Positions 3,164 through 18,571 of a stretch of DNA of 24,130 bases are shown here, one piece after another. How positions within the stretch are numbered: position 1 is the first letter of the stretch; every line of letters starts with the position of its first letter. The notes under the pieces are model-generated. The model was not told where the DNA came from. It was given only the letters and a program-made list of their open reading frames with translations, and searched no databases. Made by a program: the position numbers and the translations under genes. This DNA comes from a virus: positions 1 through 24,130 of IMG/VR virus record IMGVR_UViG_3300042894_000406; one strand, 5' to 3'.

Positions 3164-5318
3164 TATTATCTCCCGACAACTCTTCCGGTGAAACTATTCC
3201 GGCTGATTCACCACTTGATCCGCTACTTGGTGGAGGGTCTGTTGTAAGACCGGTTGATCTGTTTTGTAATTGTTGATTTTCAGTATCAGCGTACTCTTTA
3301 TTTTCTGTCTCTCTCATTTGTTCAGACATTTTAAGACCATCAACATCTGGAAAGGTGTTAATAGCCATGTTAATTTCTTGAGTAAACTTGCCACCTCTAA
3401 ACATATGTTTGATATCTTTGACTTGGTAACTAATAGCACCATTTAATTGTTCTGCTACTTTTACTGGATAATCCCAAAGCATAAGTTTATCATTGATGTT
3501 CATCACACCTGTACTATTATTGTAATCAACTGCTTCTAAAAATTTTATCTCAACAAATATTTGACCTGAGTTTGATTGTATTGTGTATCCATCATTACCA
3601 TAGAATGATTTAGCATCACCCGATGAATATTCAGGGTTAGCTAACCAATCAGGGTCTCCTAAGATTTCAATCTTAGCATCGGCCCAAGCTCCAGGGTCAT
3701 ATAAATCAGTAACAACACTGTTCTGCGCTTCCATACCCACATCTAATTTACCTAAACGGTCTGCTTTTTGTCTTTTACCAAATACTAAAGGTATGTTTGC
3801 TTTACCACCAGTTGAAGCCGAAGATGCACTATCACCAGATAGTGCTACAGTAAAGTAAGTATTATTCATCGTCTGTTCATACTTTACAATCTCAGAGTTT
3901 TGACCTGTCCACCAATACTCATACCGTTTTACTGCACCGTAGTAAGGTGTAGTCTTGTCTGCATAAGCTGATTTCAATATAGGAATCTCATATGTTTTTA
4001 CTTGGTAGGTGATATTGTACACCCAATCTTTAGATTTTCTATCAAACTTAATGTCCTCAATTTTAGGCATAACAGTAAACCACTTTAAACGTTTCTTACT
4101 GTCAATTTTTTCAGAACTATTAGAGTTTGTTTTTGCATCCGGTGATTCTTCGGTAGTGTATACTTCTTTCAATCCGTTAACCAAATAATCACTTTGTTTG
4201 ATAACGCTTGTAATTGCTTGTATGATTGGAGTAGCACCATTGAATGCCATTGTGCGTTCTTTACTATTAGGCTGCGCCTTAATTTCAAGACTTGAGTTTA
4301 CGGTAGATTTATCGCTTGGCTCTGCCATAGGCCACTTAATCTTACTAACGTCGGCTGAGCTAACGATAGTAGATGCGGCAATCTCTTGTGCATCATCAAA
4401 ATATTCTACCTTATAAGTAGTTGCAAATTCCTTGTCTCCGCTTTTAACTAAGGCTTCCTGATCTTTAGTCACTTTAGCCATTAGTTTATCAAGAATGTCA
4501 CCTACAGTATTACCTGTTAGTTGATTAGCACCTTTGTCAATAATTCCTCGTTTTTGACCTATCGCACCTGATATTTCAGTATGAGTAGCTTTAATGTTAT
4601 ATACAGTTGTTTTTCCATCTATCTTAAACTTTAGTTCAGTTATCTCAATATTATAGAATCGTTGAAACGTTGGATCTGAGCCTCCAAGTCTCTCATTGAT
4701 ATAAGAAGATTGTGTAATCAATCTTCCGGCGGGATCATAACCTAAGAATTTGATTCCTAAAATGAAGAATTGTTTAGATGCGTTCTGTGAATCTTTAAAG
4801 TTTGTAGTTGCTGAATACTGATCCAATGCGTCTTTTGCTCTTTTTAAATTAGTAATGAACGAAAGACCATAAGCTTCAGTAATATTAAACGTCATGTCTA
4901 CGTTTGTTGTTGGGCCACCTGTACTTGCACCGTTAACCGCAGAGTTGATGACTAAATTGTCAATAAAATAATCAAAGTGGAATCCCGGTGCTCTTACTGA
5001 AGGATCTTCTATACCACCACTTTGTGCAATTAGATACGCGCCGCCACCGCCTTCGTTACGGTCGTTTACTAAAAATATGTTTTTTCTACCGGTATTATTA
5101 AATTCTTCATAGGCGTCAGGACTTATCATATACAATGACAATTGATATGTATAACTTGAGTACAAACTTAATGGATTGTACTGTCTGACACCAATACCAA
5201 ATTCGTTTGTATCTGTACCAGAAGAACCTGCTTGTGTAGTGCCGGCGCTGGATACTTCGTCTGGACCGTCACCGTAATCGCCAATTACATTTCCCAATTC
5301 ATCATAGATAACTGCCAT
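3156..5318 (-). CDS. Putative baseplate hub protein in the gp27 position
   Basis: A 720-residue soluble protein with no signal peptide or membrane segment. It lies between the gp53-like gene (1-base gap) and the gp5-like gene (8-base overlap), where T4-like phages often carry the hub partner of the spike. The C-terminal part (KLMLWDYPVKVAEQLNGAIS, then YQVKDIKHMFRGGKFTQEIN) resembles the end of gp27/late-control-D type hub proteins, in which a domain ends with 'Y.V..v.H.f..G.F'. The N-terminal part (NPLSLYSSYTYQLSLYMISP) and the middle are not recognised. It is about twice the length of T4 gp27 (391 residues), so extra domains are likely. The last 40 residues are Gln/Ser/Gly-rich and look disordered. 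The role in the hub ring under the tail tube is inferred mainly from position and the C-terminal motif. Confidence 0.6.
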   Translation of the reverse strand: MAVIYDELGNVIGDYGDGPDEVSSAGTTQAGSSGTDTNEFGIGVRQYNPLSLYSSYTYQLSLYMISPDAYEEFNNTGRKNIFLVNDRNEGGGGAYLIAQSGGIEDPSVRAPGFHFDYFIDNLVINSAVNGASTGGPTTNVDMTFNITEAYGLSFITNLKRAKDALDQYSATTNFKDSQNASKQFFILGIKFLGYDPAGRLITQSSYINERLGGSDPTFQRFYNIEITELKFKIDGKTTVYNIKATHTEISGAIGQKRGIIDKGANQLTGNTVGDILDKLMAKVTKDQEALVKSGDKEFATTYKVEYFDDAQEIAASTIVSSADVSKIKWPMAEPSDKSTVNSSLEIKAQPNSKERTMAFNGATPIIQAITSVIKQSDYLVNGLKEVYTTEESPDAKTNSNSSEKIDSKKRLKWFTVMPKIEDIKFDRKSKDWVYNITYQVKTYEIPILKSAYADKTTPYYGAVKRYEYWWTGQNSEIVKYEQTMNNTYFTVALSGDSASSASTGGKANIPLVFGKRQKADRLGKLDVGMEAQNSVVTDLYDPGAWADAKIEILGDPDWLANPEYSSGDAKSFYGNDGYTIQSNSGQIFVEIKFLEAVDYNNSTGVMNINDKLMLWDYPVKVAEQLNGAISYQVKDIKHMFRGGKFTQEINMAINTFPDVDGLKMSEQMRETENKEYADTENQQLQNRSTGLTTDPPPSSGSSGESAGIVSPEELSGDNNG

Positions 5319-12443: not shown

Positions 12444-12674
12444 TTAGAAGAACGGTAGTCCTGACTTCTTAGTTGTTTCTAAGTTCTTATCTACAAGTTC
12501 ATTTAAATAATCACGTTCGGTAGCGGACATATTAAGAACATCTTCATATGTCGCGCCACCCCGCATGTACCATGCCAATGACATGGCATTTTTCTTTATT
12601 TGCTCGACGGCTTTCTCGTAACCCTCGATAAGCTTCTGTATGCCTTGTGGGTCAAGGCGGAGAAGCGTTAACCG
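12444..12674 (-). CDS. -1 frame extension of the gp26-like protein (frameshifted tail-assembly chaperone domain)
   Basis: An open frame in the -1 phase relative to the upstream gene, with no good start codon near its 5' end: a TGA lies just before the slippery run, then TTT TTT CGG TTA. Its 76 codons read like a real protein: LDPQGIQKLIEGYEKAVEQI, then MSLAWYMRGGATYEDVLNMS, ATERDYLNELVDKNLE and TTKKSGLPFF. The helical 'W-Y-M-R-G-G-x-T-Y-E-x-x-x-x-M-S-x-x-E-R' pattern is what I would expect of a small tail-assembly protein. Translation would be reached by slippage at 12680-12674, giving a fusion of about 351 residues. The alternative is independent initiation at the internal ATG at 12584, which would give only 46 residues and has no clear ribosome site. 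Confidence 0.72.
   Translation of the reverse strand, partial: RLTLLRLDPQGIQKLIEGYEKAVEQIKKNAMSLAWYMRGGATYEDVLNMSATERDYLNELVDKNLETTKKSGLPFF
12621..12658 (-). promoter_or_regulatory. Hairpin/pseudoknot candidate downstream of the slippery site
   Basis: On the minus strand GCCTTG-ACCCA-CAAGGC forms a perfect 6-pair hairpin (12658-12642), starting 15 bases after the heptamer. Its loop ACCC (12652-12649) can pair with GGGT (12624-12621), making a possible H-type pseudoknot. The spacer is longer than the usual 5-9 bases, so a stimulatory role is plausible but not certain. Confidence 0.45.
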
Positions 12675-13498
12675 AAAAAATCAGAAGTATTCAGTGTGAA
12701 TGGTTGCTCATATTCATGAGTACAGTGTACGCACTTAATCTTTAGTGGTTTAATTTCAGTTTCGGATTTCAAGTCAGCATTATAATCACGTATCGTTACA
12801 TAGATGTTCTTATCGCAGTTATTTAAGAAATCCATGATATACTCTTTAGTATCCACACGTATCGTAGGCGTTTCAATGTACTCAATTGCACCAGTTAAAA
12901 TGTTGATTGTTAGAGTAGTGACACGTTTTAGCGCATCTTGTCCTCGTTGTTTTCTGACTTCTTCATCAGGTTCTTGATCTAACATCATGAAAACACGTTG
13001 GATTTCAAGCTGGCCTAAGCTAGCATCATTCATTTCTTTGTATGTCAACGGTCTGAATTTAACCTTCAAATCACTAATTTCAAGCTCTTTATCATAGTTG
13101 CCGGGACGCATTTGACTAAGCATGTTAATCAAATTTAATCCATACTTACCAATGTCAGTGCATTTTGGACAAGTGGATTCAATCTCCATGTCAGCACCGC
13201 CACCGGCTGCTCTGATACCAATAAGAATAGCATCAATGTCCATACTATTGATAGACCATGGATCTTTGATGTTAGGCACACAGCTTTTCATCAAGTCAGA
13301 CATTGCTGAACCGTTGTATAGTGCGTCCGGTGTTTTTGTAGTAATCTCATCGATTGCAGTCATTGGATAGATTGGAATCTCTCCGTTCTCGGGCATATCT
13401 ATTATACCCGCTGGGTAGTATTTTCCACCGCTGGGTAGTTTGATATAAACAGAAGGACGACGGAAGTACTGTTTTAGTGGGTTGTTTTCTATTGCCAT
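12668..13498 (-). CDS. 26: gp26/gp51-type baseplate hub assembly protein (T4 base-plate protein family)
   Basis: A 276-residue protein whose start (NPLKQYFRRPSVYIKLPSGG, then KYYP) is the hallmark of the T4 gp26-like base-plate family. Two CxxC pairs, CPKC at 110-113 and CVHC at 256-259, could together bind zinc. In T4, gp26 and gp51 are needed for hub assembly but are not clearly in the virion, as expected of chaperones. The gene faces away from the tape-measure-like gene, across an intergenic region with late promoters on both strands. AGAGGA lies about 10 bases before the ATG. It ends in TCT GAT TTT TTC GGT TAA; the T TTT TTC run allows a -1 shift into a 76-codon extension. This matches the general layout of long-tailed phages, in which a frameshifted chaperone accompanies the tape measure. 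Confidence 0.82.
   Translation of the reverse strand: MAIENNPLKQYFRRPSVYIKLPSGGKYYPAGIIDMPENGEIPIYPMTAIDEITTKTPDALYNGSAMSDLMKSCVPNIKDPWSINSMDIDAILIGIRAAGGGADMEIESTCPKCTDIGKYGLNLINMLSQMRPGNYDKELEISDLKVKFRPLTYKEMNDASLGQLEIQRVFMMLDQEPDEEVRKQRGQDALKRVTTLTINILTGAIEYIETPTIRVDTKEYIMDFLNNCDKNIYVTIRDYNADLKSETEIKPLKIKCVHCTHEYEQPFTLNTSDFFG
12674..12680 (-). promoter_or_regulatory. T TTT TTC slippery heptamer (candidate programmed -1 frameshift site)
   Basis: The gp26-like frame reads GAT TTT TTC GGT TAA, so the heptamer T TTT TTC is in the correct X XXY YYZ phase two codons before the stop. Slipping back one base gives TTT TTT CGG TTA, which enters the 76-codon downstream frame exactly. Confidence 0.7.
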
Positions 13499-13522
13499 TT
13501 AGGTTTTTCCTCTTAAGTTAAA

Positions 13523-13540
13523 ATTGGGTCTTTACCCAAT
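13523..13540 (-). promoter_or_regulatory. Leader hairpin of the gp26-like mRNA
   Basis: ATTGGGT-AAAG-ACCCAAT on the minus strand forms a 7-pair stem with a 4-base loop, in the 51-base leader predicted from the late promoter at 13561-13555. It is followed by TTTTAA, too short a T-run for a clear terminator. It may stabilise the message or attenuate it. Confidence 0.45.
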
Positions 13541-13561: not shown

Positions 13562-13573
13562 TTGGTAAAAACC

Positions 13574-16500
13574 ATGGACGAAAATTCTCAACAAGTATTT
13601 CAGCAATTAAGCGATGAACTCCGCGCCCTAAACGAGGCTTTGGCTATTAATAGTCAAGTCCGTATGTCTGCGATGAAACCGGAGGAAATCGAGAGGATGA
13701 ACCTCAGCAATACTTTTGGACGAAACTCAAGAGCAGTTGGCGATAACACGGTAGCGGTAGATACTAGTTCTAGGGCCTACAAAGAAAACTTACAGGCTGC
13801 TAAAGAATACAATCAAGCAATGCAGAACTTTGCAAGCGCCTTAAAAGGTGGTGCAGAGGGTGTAGGAAAAGTATTTAATAATATTATCAGCCAAGATCCA
13901 TCACGTAGTATGGCAAAATACAGCGATGGATTGAGTACATTAGGTGATGCAGTTTCAAAAGCCGCAGAAAACTTTGGTCCGTTAGGTAAAGCAATAGGAT
14001 TCACAGTACAAACAATCACTAAGGTGTCTGGTTTGTATTTAAAGCAAGCAGATGATCTACTAAAAGCAAACGATAACTTAGCAAAGTTTGGTACTGCCGG
14101 GGCATTCACTACTAGAGAATTGCTGGACATGGCTCACAAAGCCGGTGTCACTAGTAAGAATATGGATGTATTGGTTAAGCCACTACAAAGCTTAGGCCCT
14201 GCATTAACTAACTTGGGCGGAACAACCGGTGAAGGTGTAAAAGCGTTTGCTAAGTTAGCGGCAGTAAGCAACGAAACACGTGAACAGTATCAACGTTTGG
14301 GCGTCAGTCAAGAAGAATTGATGCAAAACCAAGCTGACTATATTCAGCTACAACGCTTAACCGGTAAGAGTTTAAAAGGTGAATTACAAGATAAAGCAGC
14401 CTTACAAAGAGCGTCACTAGAATACACTGATAGATTGATGACGTTGAGTTCCATCACTGGTGAAAACGTAGAATCTATTAAGAAACAACAAGCAGAAGCT
14501 AGAGCCGCAGTTAACTTCCAAATCTCTCAAGCTAAGTTAGCGCAAGAAGTTAAAGCATTAGAAGCAAAACGCGACACCGCCGGAGCAGAAGCTAAGAAGA
14601 AAGAGATGAAAGCTAGGGAGGAATTCCTAGATAGTGTTGCGGCACTTGGTGATTCACAAATGACTGCGGCTGTTCAGTCTAGACTTGCTACCGGTACCGT
14701 GACAGAACAAAGCGCATATTTGGCACGTATGGGTGTGCCGATGGACAAATTCGAACAGGCGTTGAAGAAAGGTGCTGATGGCACTGAAACAGCCGGCAAG
14801 TTCATGAATTCCTACACCGATAAGATGGGTGAGGCGATTAAAAATCAAGGACGAGCCGCTACATTCTCAGATGAAACTGCCAAAGCCTTTGGTATGAATA
14901 AAAAGTCGATGCAAAACTACGGTTCAATGCTCGATAAAGACATGACAGAGGAGATGAGGAAGTCCAAAGCAGAAAGAGAAAAGGCTAAGGAATCAGGTAA
15001 AGATCCTGCACAAGACGCAAGAGCTAAGATGACTACGGTTGAGATCGAAGTAGGTAAAGCCTTCGATAAACTGCTTGTAAGTGGTAACTTTTTAGTAAGT
15101 GGATTCAATGCAAGTACTATTGCAATTGGATTATTCACAGGCGCAGTCGCAGTAGCAACAGGAATGTTGACTAAACAACTTGGTTCTAAATTACTAGATT
15201 CAGGAAAGAACGTACTAGCAAATGCCGCAAAAGGATTAATGGGCGGTGCGGCACCAGTAGCAAGTACAGTAGCAACAGCAGCCGCTCCAGTAGCAGCCAC
15301 AGCCGCAACAGCCGCAACCGCGGCGGCACCAGTAGCGGCAACCGCAGCCGGCACTGCGGCCGCAGGCGGAGCAGGAACTGCCGCATCAGCCGCAACTGCG
15401 GCCGGTACTGCACTTTCTAAATTAGCAGGACCTTTAACAGGCTTATCTAAGGCAGCACCATTGATTGGTACTGTAATGTCAGTTGGTACAGGCGTAGTAG
15501 ACGCATATCAAGGCATAAAGAAAGCTGACAAAGACCTCAAGGAAGGTAAGATAACAAAAGAAGAAGCACGTGTTGAAAAGGGTGAAGCAGTTGGCGGAGG
15601 CGCAGGAACAGCAATTGGTGGTACAGCAGGCGCACTAAAAGGTGCAGCCGCAGGTGCCGCAATTGGCTCTGTTGTTCCTATATTAGGCACAGCAGTAGGT
15701 GGCATCATAGGTGCCGCACTCGGTGGATGGTTGGGTAGCAAAGCAGGTAAAGCTATTGGTGAAGTTGCCGGCGGTGGCATCGCTAAGATGACCAGTGATG
15801 CTGACAAGAAAGTTGATGAAGCTTCCAAGAAAGCAGATGCTAAAAAAGATGCTAAGACAGCAAATGTACTAGAAAAAGATTCTGCAAAAAATAAAAACGA
15901 TCCTGTAAAGGTATCTATCGTCAAGGTAGAAGATCCAAACCTAATGAAGGCATTCGGTGCAATGACACCGGGAACAAAACTAGGAGCATCTGAATCTACA
16001 GGAAACATAGCTACTAAAGCAGCCACTAAATCAGAAACTAAATCATTTACATTTAGTGAGATGGAACTTGCAAAGAAAGATGAAAAATTATACAAAGAAT
16101 ATCTTGAAAGAAAGAAAGAATTATTTGATAAAGAATTGGAATCACGCAAAAAGAATCTTCCTAAAAACGCATCAGCACAACGAATACTGGGAACTGAAAG
16201 TATAGCACGTGATATTGCTGACATGAAAGCAAAAGAAGAATTCGCAGAACGTGCAGAAAAAGTTGGTGCGGCCAAGATAGATAAACCTGTTATAACTACA
16301 TCTACTGCACCAAAAGCCGCAGAGGTTGCACCGATTACAGCAGTGGCAAAATCAACTGCTACTGAATCTAAACCAGAATCAAATAGTAGGTTAACTGATT
16401 TACAAAAGAATAGAGAAGAATTTGAGAAAAAGGGCCCTGCGACTGATAGCGCACAGAGTAAACTTGCATACAATAATATCTTACAACAGATGGATCGTGC

Positions 16501-18571
16501 AATTGCTAATGAGAAAGCAAGGGACAGTGCACCAAAAGCCGCAATCGGTGGTATATTCGAAGGACCTAAGTCTGGATATCCAGTTGAACTTCATGGTAAA
16601 GAAATGATTACACCATTGGGCAGTGGAATGAAAACTGCCGCGGTACCAAAATCTGAGGATGAGGAATTACAAAAAGAAATAGAAGCAATCAAAGAGCTAA
16701 AGAATACAATCAAAGACACTGATTCTATATTCAAGAAACTAACTGCATCTGTTATCAAGTTAGATGAAATACAAAAAGATATACTAGAGAATGAAGAAGA
16801 TGCTTCTACTTCAATGGAAAGTGTACAAGATAAACTGAAAAATGTTTTTAATGCCGCGGCAGTTGATCTTAGTAAGTTCTCAAACAAAATAAAAGTAGTA
16901 ACACAAGAATCTGGTTCTACTGGAACTGGTACTGGTATTAAACTTCCAGATAACGTTGGTGGAATATTAGGAGGCAGTGCAGGTAGCGGAACTGGTTCTG
17001 CAAAAACCGGAGCGCCGGCTGCAGCCGAAGGACAGGGTATAAAGCCTCCATCAGCACCTCCTCTAGCAGGTATGGGCGGCGGCACTGGATTGAAACCGGC
17101 TAAAGCTAAAGATCAGGATATTAAACAGAATCTAGGCGATGTTAAAGCCGCAATGATGAAGCGTGGCATGGGAGATGAAAAATATCTTAATGCTGTTCTT
17201 GGTAATGTTATGAAGGAAACCGGTGGTGTACTTCAAAACGAAAATTTAGATTACGGTAAAACTAGTAACGAGAGAATCCGATCAATATTTGGATCCAGAG
17301 TAGCTGGGAAATCAGATCAAGAAATAAATGAGATTAAAAAGAACCCCGAAATGATGGGTGAAGTAATGTACGGCAAAGATACTAAGATCGGCCGTGGCAT
17401 GGGTAATACTGAAATAGGTGACGGTTTCAAGTATCGCGGACGAGGCTATATCGGTATTACTGGTAAAGCAATGTATGCAAAGGCTTCACAAGCATTGTTC
17501 GGTGATGATAGACTAGTAAAAGACCCGGATCTATTGAATAATCCTCAAGTAGCGGCCGAAGCAACTGCATGGTACATGGAAATGACTAAAGGCAGTATGG
17601 CTAAAAGGATGGGTATTGATCCCTCACAGCCTATGACTCAAGATATGGCTAACCAATTAGCAACTAGTCAAGTTGCAGGCCGTGATGTTAATAAGTCAAG
17701 TGACTACATTAAAGGTGAATTGTTAGGTAAAGTATCGAGGTATGCCGCATCTAAAGACATTCAAGGTATACAACCGTCTCAAGGTCAGGGTACGATGGTT
17801 GCATCTGCTGATACTAAAAAGTCAGACATTCCAAAAGCACAAAGGGGCGGCGTTTTTGATGGCCCTGACACAGGATATCTAGTAGAATTGCATGGCCCTG
17901 AAACAGTTATACCTAATGACAAGATTGCAAGTGTGGGTAAGCAAGGACTTGAATCTATTACTAAGATGACTGGTAATGTAACAACCGGTGGCGATACTGC
18001 AATGCCATCAATAGATGCAACATCAATTGCAAAGAAATCAATTAAGTTATTTTCTGAAGAAATGGGTCCAACTGCATTTGGGGTGAATGAGTATGCAGGA
18101 TATAATCAAGGTCCTATGTCAACTGATCTTGGTGCTATCTCTAAGATGGCAAGCAAGATAGGAGCATACGATGATAAGACACAAACCATAACTGATCCTG
18201 AAGCTTGGAAAAAGATTGTTGGTTCTGGAATTGGAACAAACTCTAATCTTGCAGGAGCAGAGTTAGGTACTAAAGCATTTGATCCCGAAATAGGTGATGT
18301 ATTAGGTGACAGATTGAAAGAACTCATGGAGAATAATAATGAGGATCTTTCTACTGCAATGGAAAAATTAACAACTGAATTCAGAGAAGTTTTACTACAG
18401 CTTAAAGATACATTGACTAAGCAATCAGCCGATACGGTTGCTGGTATGAATCCTTCTGATCCAGGAGAAGATCCAATGACAGAAATGGTAAGCATCTTAT
18501 CCGATATTAAGGATAAGCTATCAGAATCGTATGACACACAAGAGAAGTTATTGCAGAATTCACGAGCCTGA
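13574..18571 (+). CDS. Tape-measure-like tail protein with embedded GH19 lysozyme/chitinase domain
   Basis: A protein of 1665 residues from ATG 13574; an in-frame TTG at 13562 would add four. The first 550 residues are helical, Ala/Gln-rich and coiled-coil-like, as in tail tape measures. Then come hydrophobic segments (NFLVSGFNASTIAIGLFTGA), an Ala/Pro/Thr low-complexity stretch, and Gly-rich transmembrane-like stretches (AAAGAAIGSVVPILGTAVGG). Residues about 1190-1345 form a GH19-type muralytic domain: NVMKETGG with the catalytic-type Glu, ENLDYGK, and the diagnostic DGFKYRGRGYIGITGKAMY. Two copies of a GG(I/V)F(E/D)GP..GY.VELHG motif flank it. It probably sets tail length and cuts peptidoglycan during DNA entry. 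It is unusually long next to T4 gp29 (590 residues). A non-tape-measure virion lysozyme is the main alternative, but the neighbouring gp26-like chaperone favours tape measure. Confidence 0.75.
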   Translation: MDENSQQVFQQLSDELRALNEALAINSQVRMSAMKPEEIERMNLSNTFGRNSRAVGDNTVAVDTSSRAYKENLQAAKEYNQAMQNFASALKGGAEGVGKVFNNIISQDPSRSMAKYSDGLSTLGDAVSKAAENFGPLGKAIGFTVQTITKVSGLYLKQADDLLKANDNLAKFGTAGAFTTRELLDMAHKAGVTSKNMDVLVKPLQSLGPALTNLGGTTGEGVKAFAKLAAVSNETREQYQRLGVSQEELMQNQADYIQLQRLTGKSLKGELQDKAALQRASLEYTDRLMTLSSITGENVESIKKQQAEARAAVNFQISQAKLAQEVKALEAKRDTAGAEAKKKEMKAREEFLDSVAALGDSQMTAAVQSRLATGTVTEQSAYLARMGVPMDKFEQALKKGADGTETAGKFMNSYTDKMGEAIKNQGRAATFSDETAKAFGMNKKSMQNYGSMLDKDMTEEMRKSKAEREKAKESGKDPAQDARAKMTTVEIEVGKAFDKLLVSGNFLVSGFNASTIAIGLFTGAVAVATGMLTKQLGSKLLDSGKNVLANAAKGLMGGAAPVASTVATAAAPVAATAATAATAAAPVAATAAGTAAAGGAGTAASAATAAGTALSKLAGPLTGLSKAAPLIGTVMSVGTGVVDAYQGIKKADKDLKEGKITKEEARVEKGEAVGGGAGTAIGGTAGALKGAAAGAAIGSVVPILGTAVGGIIGAALGGWLGSKAGKAIGEVAGGGIAKMTSDADKKVDEASKKADAKKDAKTANVLEKDSAKNKNDPVKVSIVKVEDPNLMKAFGAMTPGTKLGASESTGNIATKAATKSETKSFTFSEMELAKKDEKLYKEYLERKKELFDKELESRKKNLPKNASAQRILGTESIARDIADMKAKEEFAERAEKVGAAKIDKPVITTSTAPKAAEVAPITAVAKSTATESKPESNSRLTDLQKNREEFEKKGPATDSAQSKLAYNNILQQMDRAIANEKARDSAPKAAIGGIFEGPKSGYPVELHGKEMITPLGSGMKTAAVPKSEDEELQKEIEAIKELKNTIKDTDSIFKKLTASVIKLDEIQKDILENEEDASTSMESVQDKLKNVFNAAAVDLSKFSNKIKVVTQESGSTGTGTGIKLPDNVGGILGGSAGSGTGSAKTGAPAAAEGQGIKPPSAPPLAGMGGGTGLKPAKAKDQDIKQNLGDVKAAMMKRGMGDEKYLNAVLGNVMKETGGVLQNENLDYGKTSNERIRSIFGSRVAGKSDQEINEIKKNPEMMGEVMYGKDTKIGRGMGNTEIGDGFKYRGRGYIGITGKAMYAKASQALFGDDRLVKDPDLLNNPQVAAEATAWYMEMTKGSMAKRMGIDPSQPMTQDMANQLATSQVAGRDVNKSSDYIKGELLGKVSRYAASKDIQGIQPSQGQGTMVASADTKKSDIPKAQRGGVFDGPDTGYLVELHGPETVIPNDKIASVGKQGLESITKMTGNVTTGGDTAMPSIDATSIAKKSIKLFSEEMGPTAFGVNEYAGYNQGPMSTDLGAISKMASKIGAYDDKTQTITDPEAWKKIVGSGIGTNSNLAGAELGTKAFDPEIGDVLGDRLKELMENNNEDLSTAMEKLTTEFREVLLQLKDTLTKQSADTVAGMNPSDPGEDPMTEMVSILSDIKDKLSESYDTQEKLLQNSRA
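15238..15415 (+). repeat. Ala/Thr/Pro low-complexity coding repeat in the tape measure
   Basis: Imperfect GCA/GCC/GCG-ACA codon repeats encode APVASTVATAAAPVAATAAT and similar, about 55 residues with few other amino acids. It links the helical part to the Gly-rich hydrophobic part. Codon usage varies enough (gca, gcc, gcg, gct) to suggest selection at the protein level. Confidence 0.7.

Follow-up and report, generated by a model that had tools for sequence, protein, structure and literature searches.

Could a T4-like phage encode the short and the long form of its tail assembly chaperone (TAC) in a single gene, by means of a programmed -1 frameshift near the end of that gene? The question is raised by a 24,130-nt DNA fragment (IMG/VR record IMGVR_UViG_3300042894_000406, positions 1-24,130), the whole of which is called the window here. 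The window contains genes for the portal protein gp20, the prohead protease, the major capsid protein gp23, gp46-like and gp47-like proteins, a late sigma factor and gp53, and no tRNA was found in its 24 kb; judged by its sequence, the source is a T4-like myovirus. The original prediction for this locus was a programmed -1 frameshift yielding a short and an extended gp26-family chaperone, next to a tape-measure gene, and the comparative evidence presented below supports that central reading. We consider it very probable that the gene makes a short and an extended T4-like chaperone by a frameshift of the lambda G/GT type. The features concerned are listed below in window coordinates, with the basis of each assignment.

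13498-12668, minus strand: short tail assembly chaperone (TAC-N; T4 gp26 / PF12322 T4_baseplate family), 276 aa, the 0-frame ORF; Pfam and PHROG matches.
13509-13514, minus strand: likely ribosome-binding site AAGAGG, 10 nt 5' of the chaperone ATG; read from the sequence.
12680-12674, minus strand: slippery heptamer T_TTT_TTC, phased as X_XXY_YYZ for a -1 shift, with an invariant G after it; sequence.
12681-12683, minus strand: TGA of the -1 frame, directly 5' of the heptamer; sequence.
12668-12670, minus strand: 0-frame stop TAA, 3 nt past the heptamer (0-18 nt in relatives); sequence and relatives.
12444-12674, minus strand: extension in the -1 frame (TAC-C domain), 76 codons and the stop TAA (12446-12444); ORF reading and relatives.
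12632-12666, minus strand: hairpin beginning 7 nt past the heptamer, with the outer stem GCTTCT/AGAAGC and the inner stem GCCTTG/CAAGGC; fold, synonymous controls and compensatory changes.
13562-18571, plus strand: tape-measure-like protein with a GH19/endolysin-like domain, 1669 aa, divergent neighbour; PHROG matches and a weak Pfam match.

The 276-aa short protein matches Pfam PF12322 with an E-value of 1.9e-14 (54.3 bits, against a cut-off of 24.5) and PHROG 150 (baseplate hub) with an E-value of 8e-15. Its 1669-aa neighbour matches the tape measure families PHROG 794 (1.2e-9) and PHROG 167 (1e-5). The chaperone gene therefore adjoins a tape-measure-like gene, as would be expected of a tail chaperone, and both gene assignments made from the sequence alone hold. 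In RaK2 as well, the annotation of the gene beside the chaperone notes a similarity to a tape measure protein. The window's neighbour also matches the endolysin family PHROG 181 (E-value 5e-24) over residues about 1187-1344, while the Pfam GH19 match is weak and under the cut-off; such a domain inside a tape-measure-like protein suggests a tape measure that cuts the cell wall. In the short gap between the two divergent genes there is a perfect 7-bp inverted repeat, ATTGGGT-AAAG-ACCCAAT (13523-13540), a possible regulatory site or leader hairpin.

At its 3' end, the 276-codon ORF (13498-12668, minus strand) reads GAT TTT TTC GGT TAA, which places T TTT TTC at 12680-12674 in the exact phase for -1 slippage, just as predicted. 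The -1 frame is open from 10 nt ahead of the 0-frame stop, and initiation upstream in this frame is ruled out because the TGA at 12683-12681 abuts the heptamer. The reading of a 76-codon extension with a TGA just upstream and a fusion of about 351 residues was confirmed on the sequence, the predicted fusion being 275 + 76 = 351 aa.

Is this arrangement kept in related phages? When IMG/VR was searched with both parts of the gene, the short protein found 58 loci and the extension at least 578 candidate relatives, of which the best 80 were kept. Wherever both parts were readable, the extension is encoded in the -1 frame with respect to the short protein, and the in-phase TTTTTTC is present in 98 of the 98 distinct loci of this first set, where it stands 3-18 nt ahead of the 0-frame stop. 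Three further searches with divergent extensions, together with named phages, enlarged the set to 211 distinct junctions. All 211 have an in-phase T6 run followed by a homologous -1 extension; 210 of them read TTTTTTCG and one reads TTTTTTT. The arrangement is retained down to about 31% protein identity. It should be noted that the loci were picked by protein homology and not by a DNA motif, so that the count is not circular. Nor is the fixed order TTT TTC due to codon usage, since phenylalanine is encoded elsewhere in the relatives' genes by 510 TTT and 211 TTC codons. Counted from the FF residues, the extension is 78 aa long in nearly all of the 75 non-redundant members of the first set. The in-phase site with its -1 extension is a genuine feature, far more regular than chance would give. 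The comparison of related gp26-family loci that had been proposed as a check thus found the slippery run and the -1 frame kept throughout, and none of the 211 junctions lacks the T6 run; homologues with no slippery run and a separate start for the 76-residue protein had been named as a refutation.

The same comparison bears on the trivial explanation, that a sequencing error or a pseudogene has broken one true frame at the homopolymer. Although homopolymers are error-prone on some platforms, the same two-frame layout and stop window recur in 211 distinct loci, mostly from independent metagenomes, as well as in isolate genomes. The relatives thus refute an error at the six-T run, which had been named as a possible refutation, and we give this explanation a negligible probability.

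The extension also bears the marks of a translated frame. In 72 gap-free extensions, the entropy at codon positions 1, 2 and 3 of the -1 frame is 1.00, 0.65 and 1.51, respectively, the third positions being the most variable. Averaged over 406 closer pairs, pN/pS is 0.36 in the -1 frame, whereas the two remaining frames give 1.17 and 1.83; these values indicate a direction rather than a precise quantity because synonymous change is near saturation. Both other frames are interrupted by stops in 72 of the 72 extensions. The extension evolves as a protein in the -1 frame only, and the purifying selection that had been proposed as a check is found there.

Downstream of the heptamer and its G, the next 80 nt fold with -25.4 kcal/mol (dinucleotide-shuffle z -2.99; 1 of 200 shuffles was equally stable). 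The hairpin consists of two stacked stems, and it begins 7 nt after the heptamer, which is a usual distance between heptamer and structure for -1 stimulators. A perfect hairpin had been described here; each stem is indeed perfect, but an asymmetric internal loop separates them, and they do not form one perfect hairpin. When the shuffles were constrained to keep the -1 protein, z was -4.3 for the window, with a mean of -2.05 over 68 relatives of its clade, and two further clades gave means of -3.0 and -2.0 under the same control. In the cyanophage-type group no hairpin was detectable by this control (z -0.3), and consequently the hairpin is not required family-wide. The pairing of the outer stem is kept in most sequences, with compensatory two-sided changes at the pairs 15:49, 18:46 and 19:45; its covariation score exceeds that of every shuffle and every slid version, although the relatedness of the sequences inflates the comparison with shuffles. 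The inner stem is variable among relatives, which is probably why RNAalifold returned no structure for 51 sequences; the pairs of the named hairpin were counted directly in place of its consensus. A search of Rfam gave nothing relevant to the region. Taken as a whole, the hairpin at 12632-12666 is probably a frameshift stimulator, an element that many but not all frameshifts of the G/GT type possess. The potential for a pseudoknot, which had also been proposed, did not hold up as a conserved feature: the ACCC loop could pair with GGGT in the window, but only 33% of cells are paired in relatives. In the window's fold, a second hairpin is predicted directly after the first (12604-12628, minus strand).

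The hairpin and the T6 run also bear on RNA polymerase slippage, in which a base added or removed on the T6 would let some transcripts encode the fusion in frame. The junction does hold a homopolymer, which reaches T8 in one relative (Melnitz). However, six T are short for efficient transcriptional slippage, and in nearly all loci the run has exactly six T, with C and G next, in the X_XXY_YYZ phase. Both this regularity and the presence, in most clades, of a hairpin at the spacing of a ribosomal stimulator fit ribosomal slippage better, and polymerase slippage is accordingly judged very improbable.

Among named phages, 13 of the 14 frameshift-type phages examined have the in-phase T6 and the -1 extension, namely Synechococcus S-RIM8, Methylophilales Melnitz-1, Delftia PhiW-14, KVP40-like VH1_2019, Aeromonas ZPAH1, Vibrio 2.275.O, PA5oct, CBB, Salicola SCTP-2, Stenotrophomonas RAS14, RaK2, Agrobacterium Atu_ph07 and Sinorhizobium Phosso. 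The exception is Serratia 3M (Ackermannviridae), which reads G_GTT_TTC at the corresponding place where gp26 ends (around locus position 3190) and has a homologous-looking -1 extension. In T4 and Acinetobacter Octan, gene 26 was found to end without a slippery site, and a separate gene 51 is present. When a profile of the predicted fusions from frameshift phages is aligned with the T4 proteins, the match to gp26 stops at the junction and that to gp51 runs across it, with scores of 26-85 bits (26-37 for gp51); none of 2000 shuffles scored above 8.1 bits. The profiles of the window's clade alone are weak against the single T4 gp26 and gp51 sequences in hhalign, and the window's own C domain has no direct match to T4 gp51; the link is therefore made through intermediate phages, by way of which the -1 fusion is equivalent to T4 gp51. 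One TAC-N and one TAC-C, adjacent to each other, occur in each of eight relatives' contigs of 157-364 kb, and no second gp26/gp51-like gene was found in these contigs, which may be incomplete.

Could the extension nevertheless be a separate small gene with its own start, whose translation follows the TAC-N stop by re-initiation or by coupling? Some records are annotated in this way: in Phosso the start overlaps the stop, and S-RIM8 and Melnitz use internal ATGs. In addition, an ATG stands at codon 3 or 4 (0-based) in about 12 of the 75 non-redundant loci. But no start codon near the junction is conserved in these 75 loci, the first ATGs being scattered, and in the window the first ATG of the -1 frame is codon 33 from the slip site, whose use would lose a conserved helix; the claim that the extension lacks its own start near the junction is thereby borne out. 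A separate gene would also leave unexplained the in-phase T6 in 211 of 211 junctions, the homology that starts at the slip site and the collinear T4 gp51. We regard it as a most unlikely alternative to the programmed frameshift. As for the records themselves, the S-RIM8 (3232-3369) and Melnitz-1 (3223-3366) genes (Kyanoviridae) annotated as 'baseplate hub assembly catalyst' or 'baseplate hub assembly' are C-terminal pieces of the -1 extension with an internal ATG, so what is labelled 'gp51' there is probably part of a predicted frameshift product. The -1 fusion would explain a recurrent annotation error, in which the C-terminal part is either omitted or labelled as 'gp51' or as some unrelated small gene.

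For both domains, structures were predicted with a pLDDT of 88-89; Foldseek found no significant known structure with either model, and VIA-align with the short form gave no informative match. A chaperone that leaves the tail would be expected to be missing from the finished virion. In the virion mass-spectrometry list of the relative CBB, CBB_251, the tape-measure neighbour, is listed with 29 peptides and CBB_248-250 are not, the gene numbering having been matched in the present analysis (PMC5259590).

How might the programmed frameshift work at this locus? Most ribosomes would stop at the TAA and release the 276-aa, gp26-like TAC-N. A minority would slip back one base, with the P-site and A-site tRNA-Phe re-pairing on U_UUU_UUC, aided by the RNA hairpin that starts 7 nt downstream, and would produce the 351-aa TAC-NC. 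Many copies of TAC-N may then coat the tape measure protein (the product of 13562-18571), as with lambda gpG/gpGT, while the C domain of a few TAC-NC copies would recruit tail-tube subunits and so link tape measure and tube. That ribosomes slip here, how often they would do so and what the two forms bind are inferred. With regard to the history of the locus, we lean, by a small measure, towards the following scenario: the single T_TTT_TTC gene is the ancestral and dominant arrangement for the tail chaperones of T4-like phages, all the way from cyanophages to jumbo phages; genes 26 and 51 of T4 are a derived duplication that replaced it; and the hairpin stimulator, absent in cyanophages, evolved in the window's lineage and related clades.

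The abstract of Vladimirov, Gautam and Davidson from 2022 reportedly assigns T4 gp26 as TAC-N and gp51 as TAC-NC, and is said to describe the frameshift as apparently conserved in several T4-like groups, with T4 itself using genes 26 and 51. Their identification of the chaperones of T4-like phages (Virology 2022;566:9-15) is drawn upon in passages of two later papers. According to the PRFect paper, some T4-like phages do not frameshift but carry one short gene and one long, fused gene (PMC10885494, citing Vladimirov et al., 2022), and according to the paper on phage Adele, poly-T signals for a -1 shift are a known feature of the TAC-N genes in T4-like phages (PMC12846349, citing the same work). 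As these passages present it, the general idea of frameshifted long and short tail chaperones in phages, T4-like phages included, is already published, and the novelty implied by the original prediction was overstated. The results obtained here are the hairpin evidence, the conservation in 211 of 211 junctions and the lack of a second gp51 in the window's lineage. The frameshift has been described as widely conserved among long-tailed phages 'except T4' (Atkins et al. 2016, PMC5009743). Since a classic -1 site is present in the wider relatives of T4, which range from cyanophages to jumbo phages of 490 kb, this exception is confined to T4's own branch.

Compared with known systems, the window shares with the T4-like chaperones the PF12322 family and the pair of short and long forms, gp51 matching the fusion through the junction and gp26 ending there. 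T4 and Octan, however, use two genes with no slippery site, whereas the window and its relatives use one gene with T_TTT_TTC. The slippery heptamer of lambda gpG/gpGT differs from that of the window. The logic of gpG/gpGT is the same, a short chaperone and a low-level -1 extended form made beside the tape measure gene (PMC5009743), but the lambda chaperone gene lies directly upstream of the tape measure gene on the same strand, whereas that of the window is divergent from it. At the TAC locus of Vandenendeviridae/Andersonviridae (phage Adele), a -1 frameshift on a conserved poly-T signal (GTTTTT) has been inferred for the TAC gene of a myovirus from similar comparative evidence (PMC12846349); Adele belongs to a different phage group from the window's.
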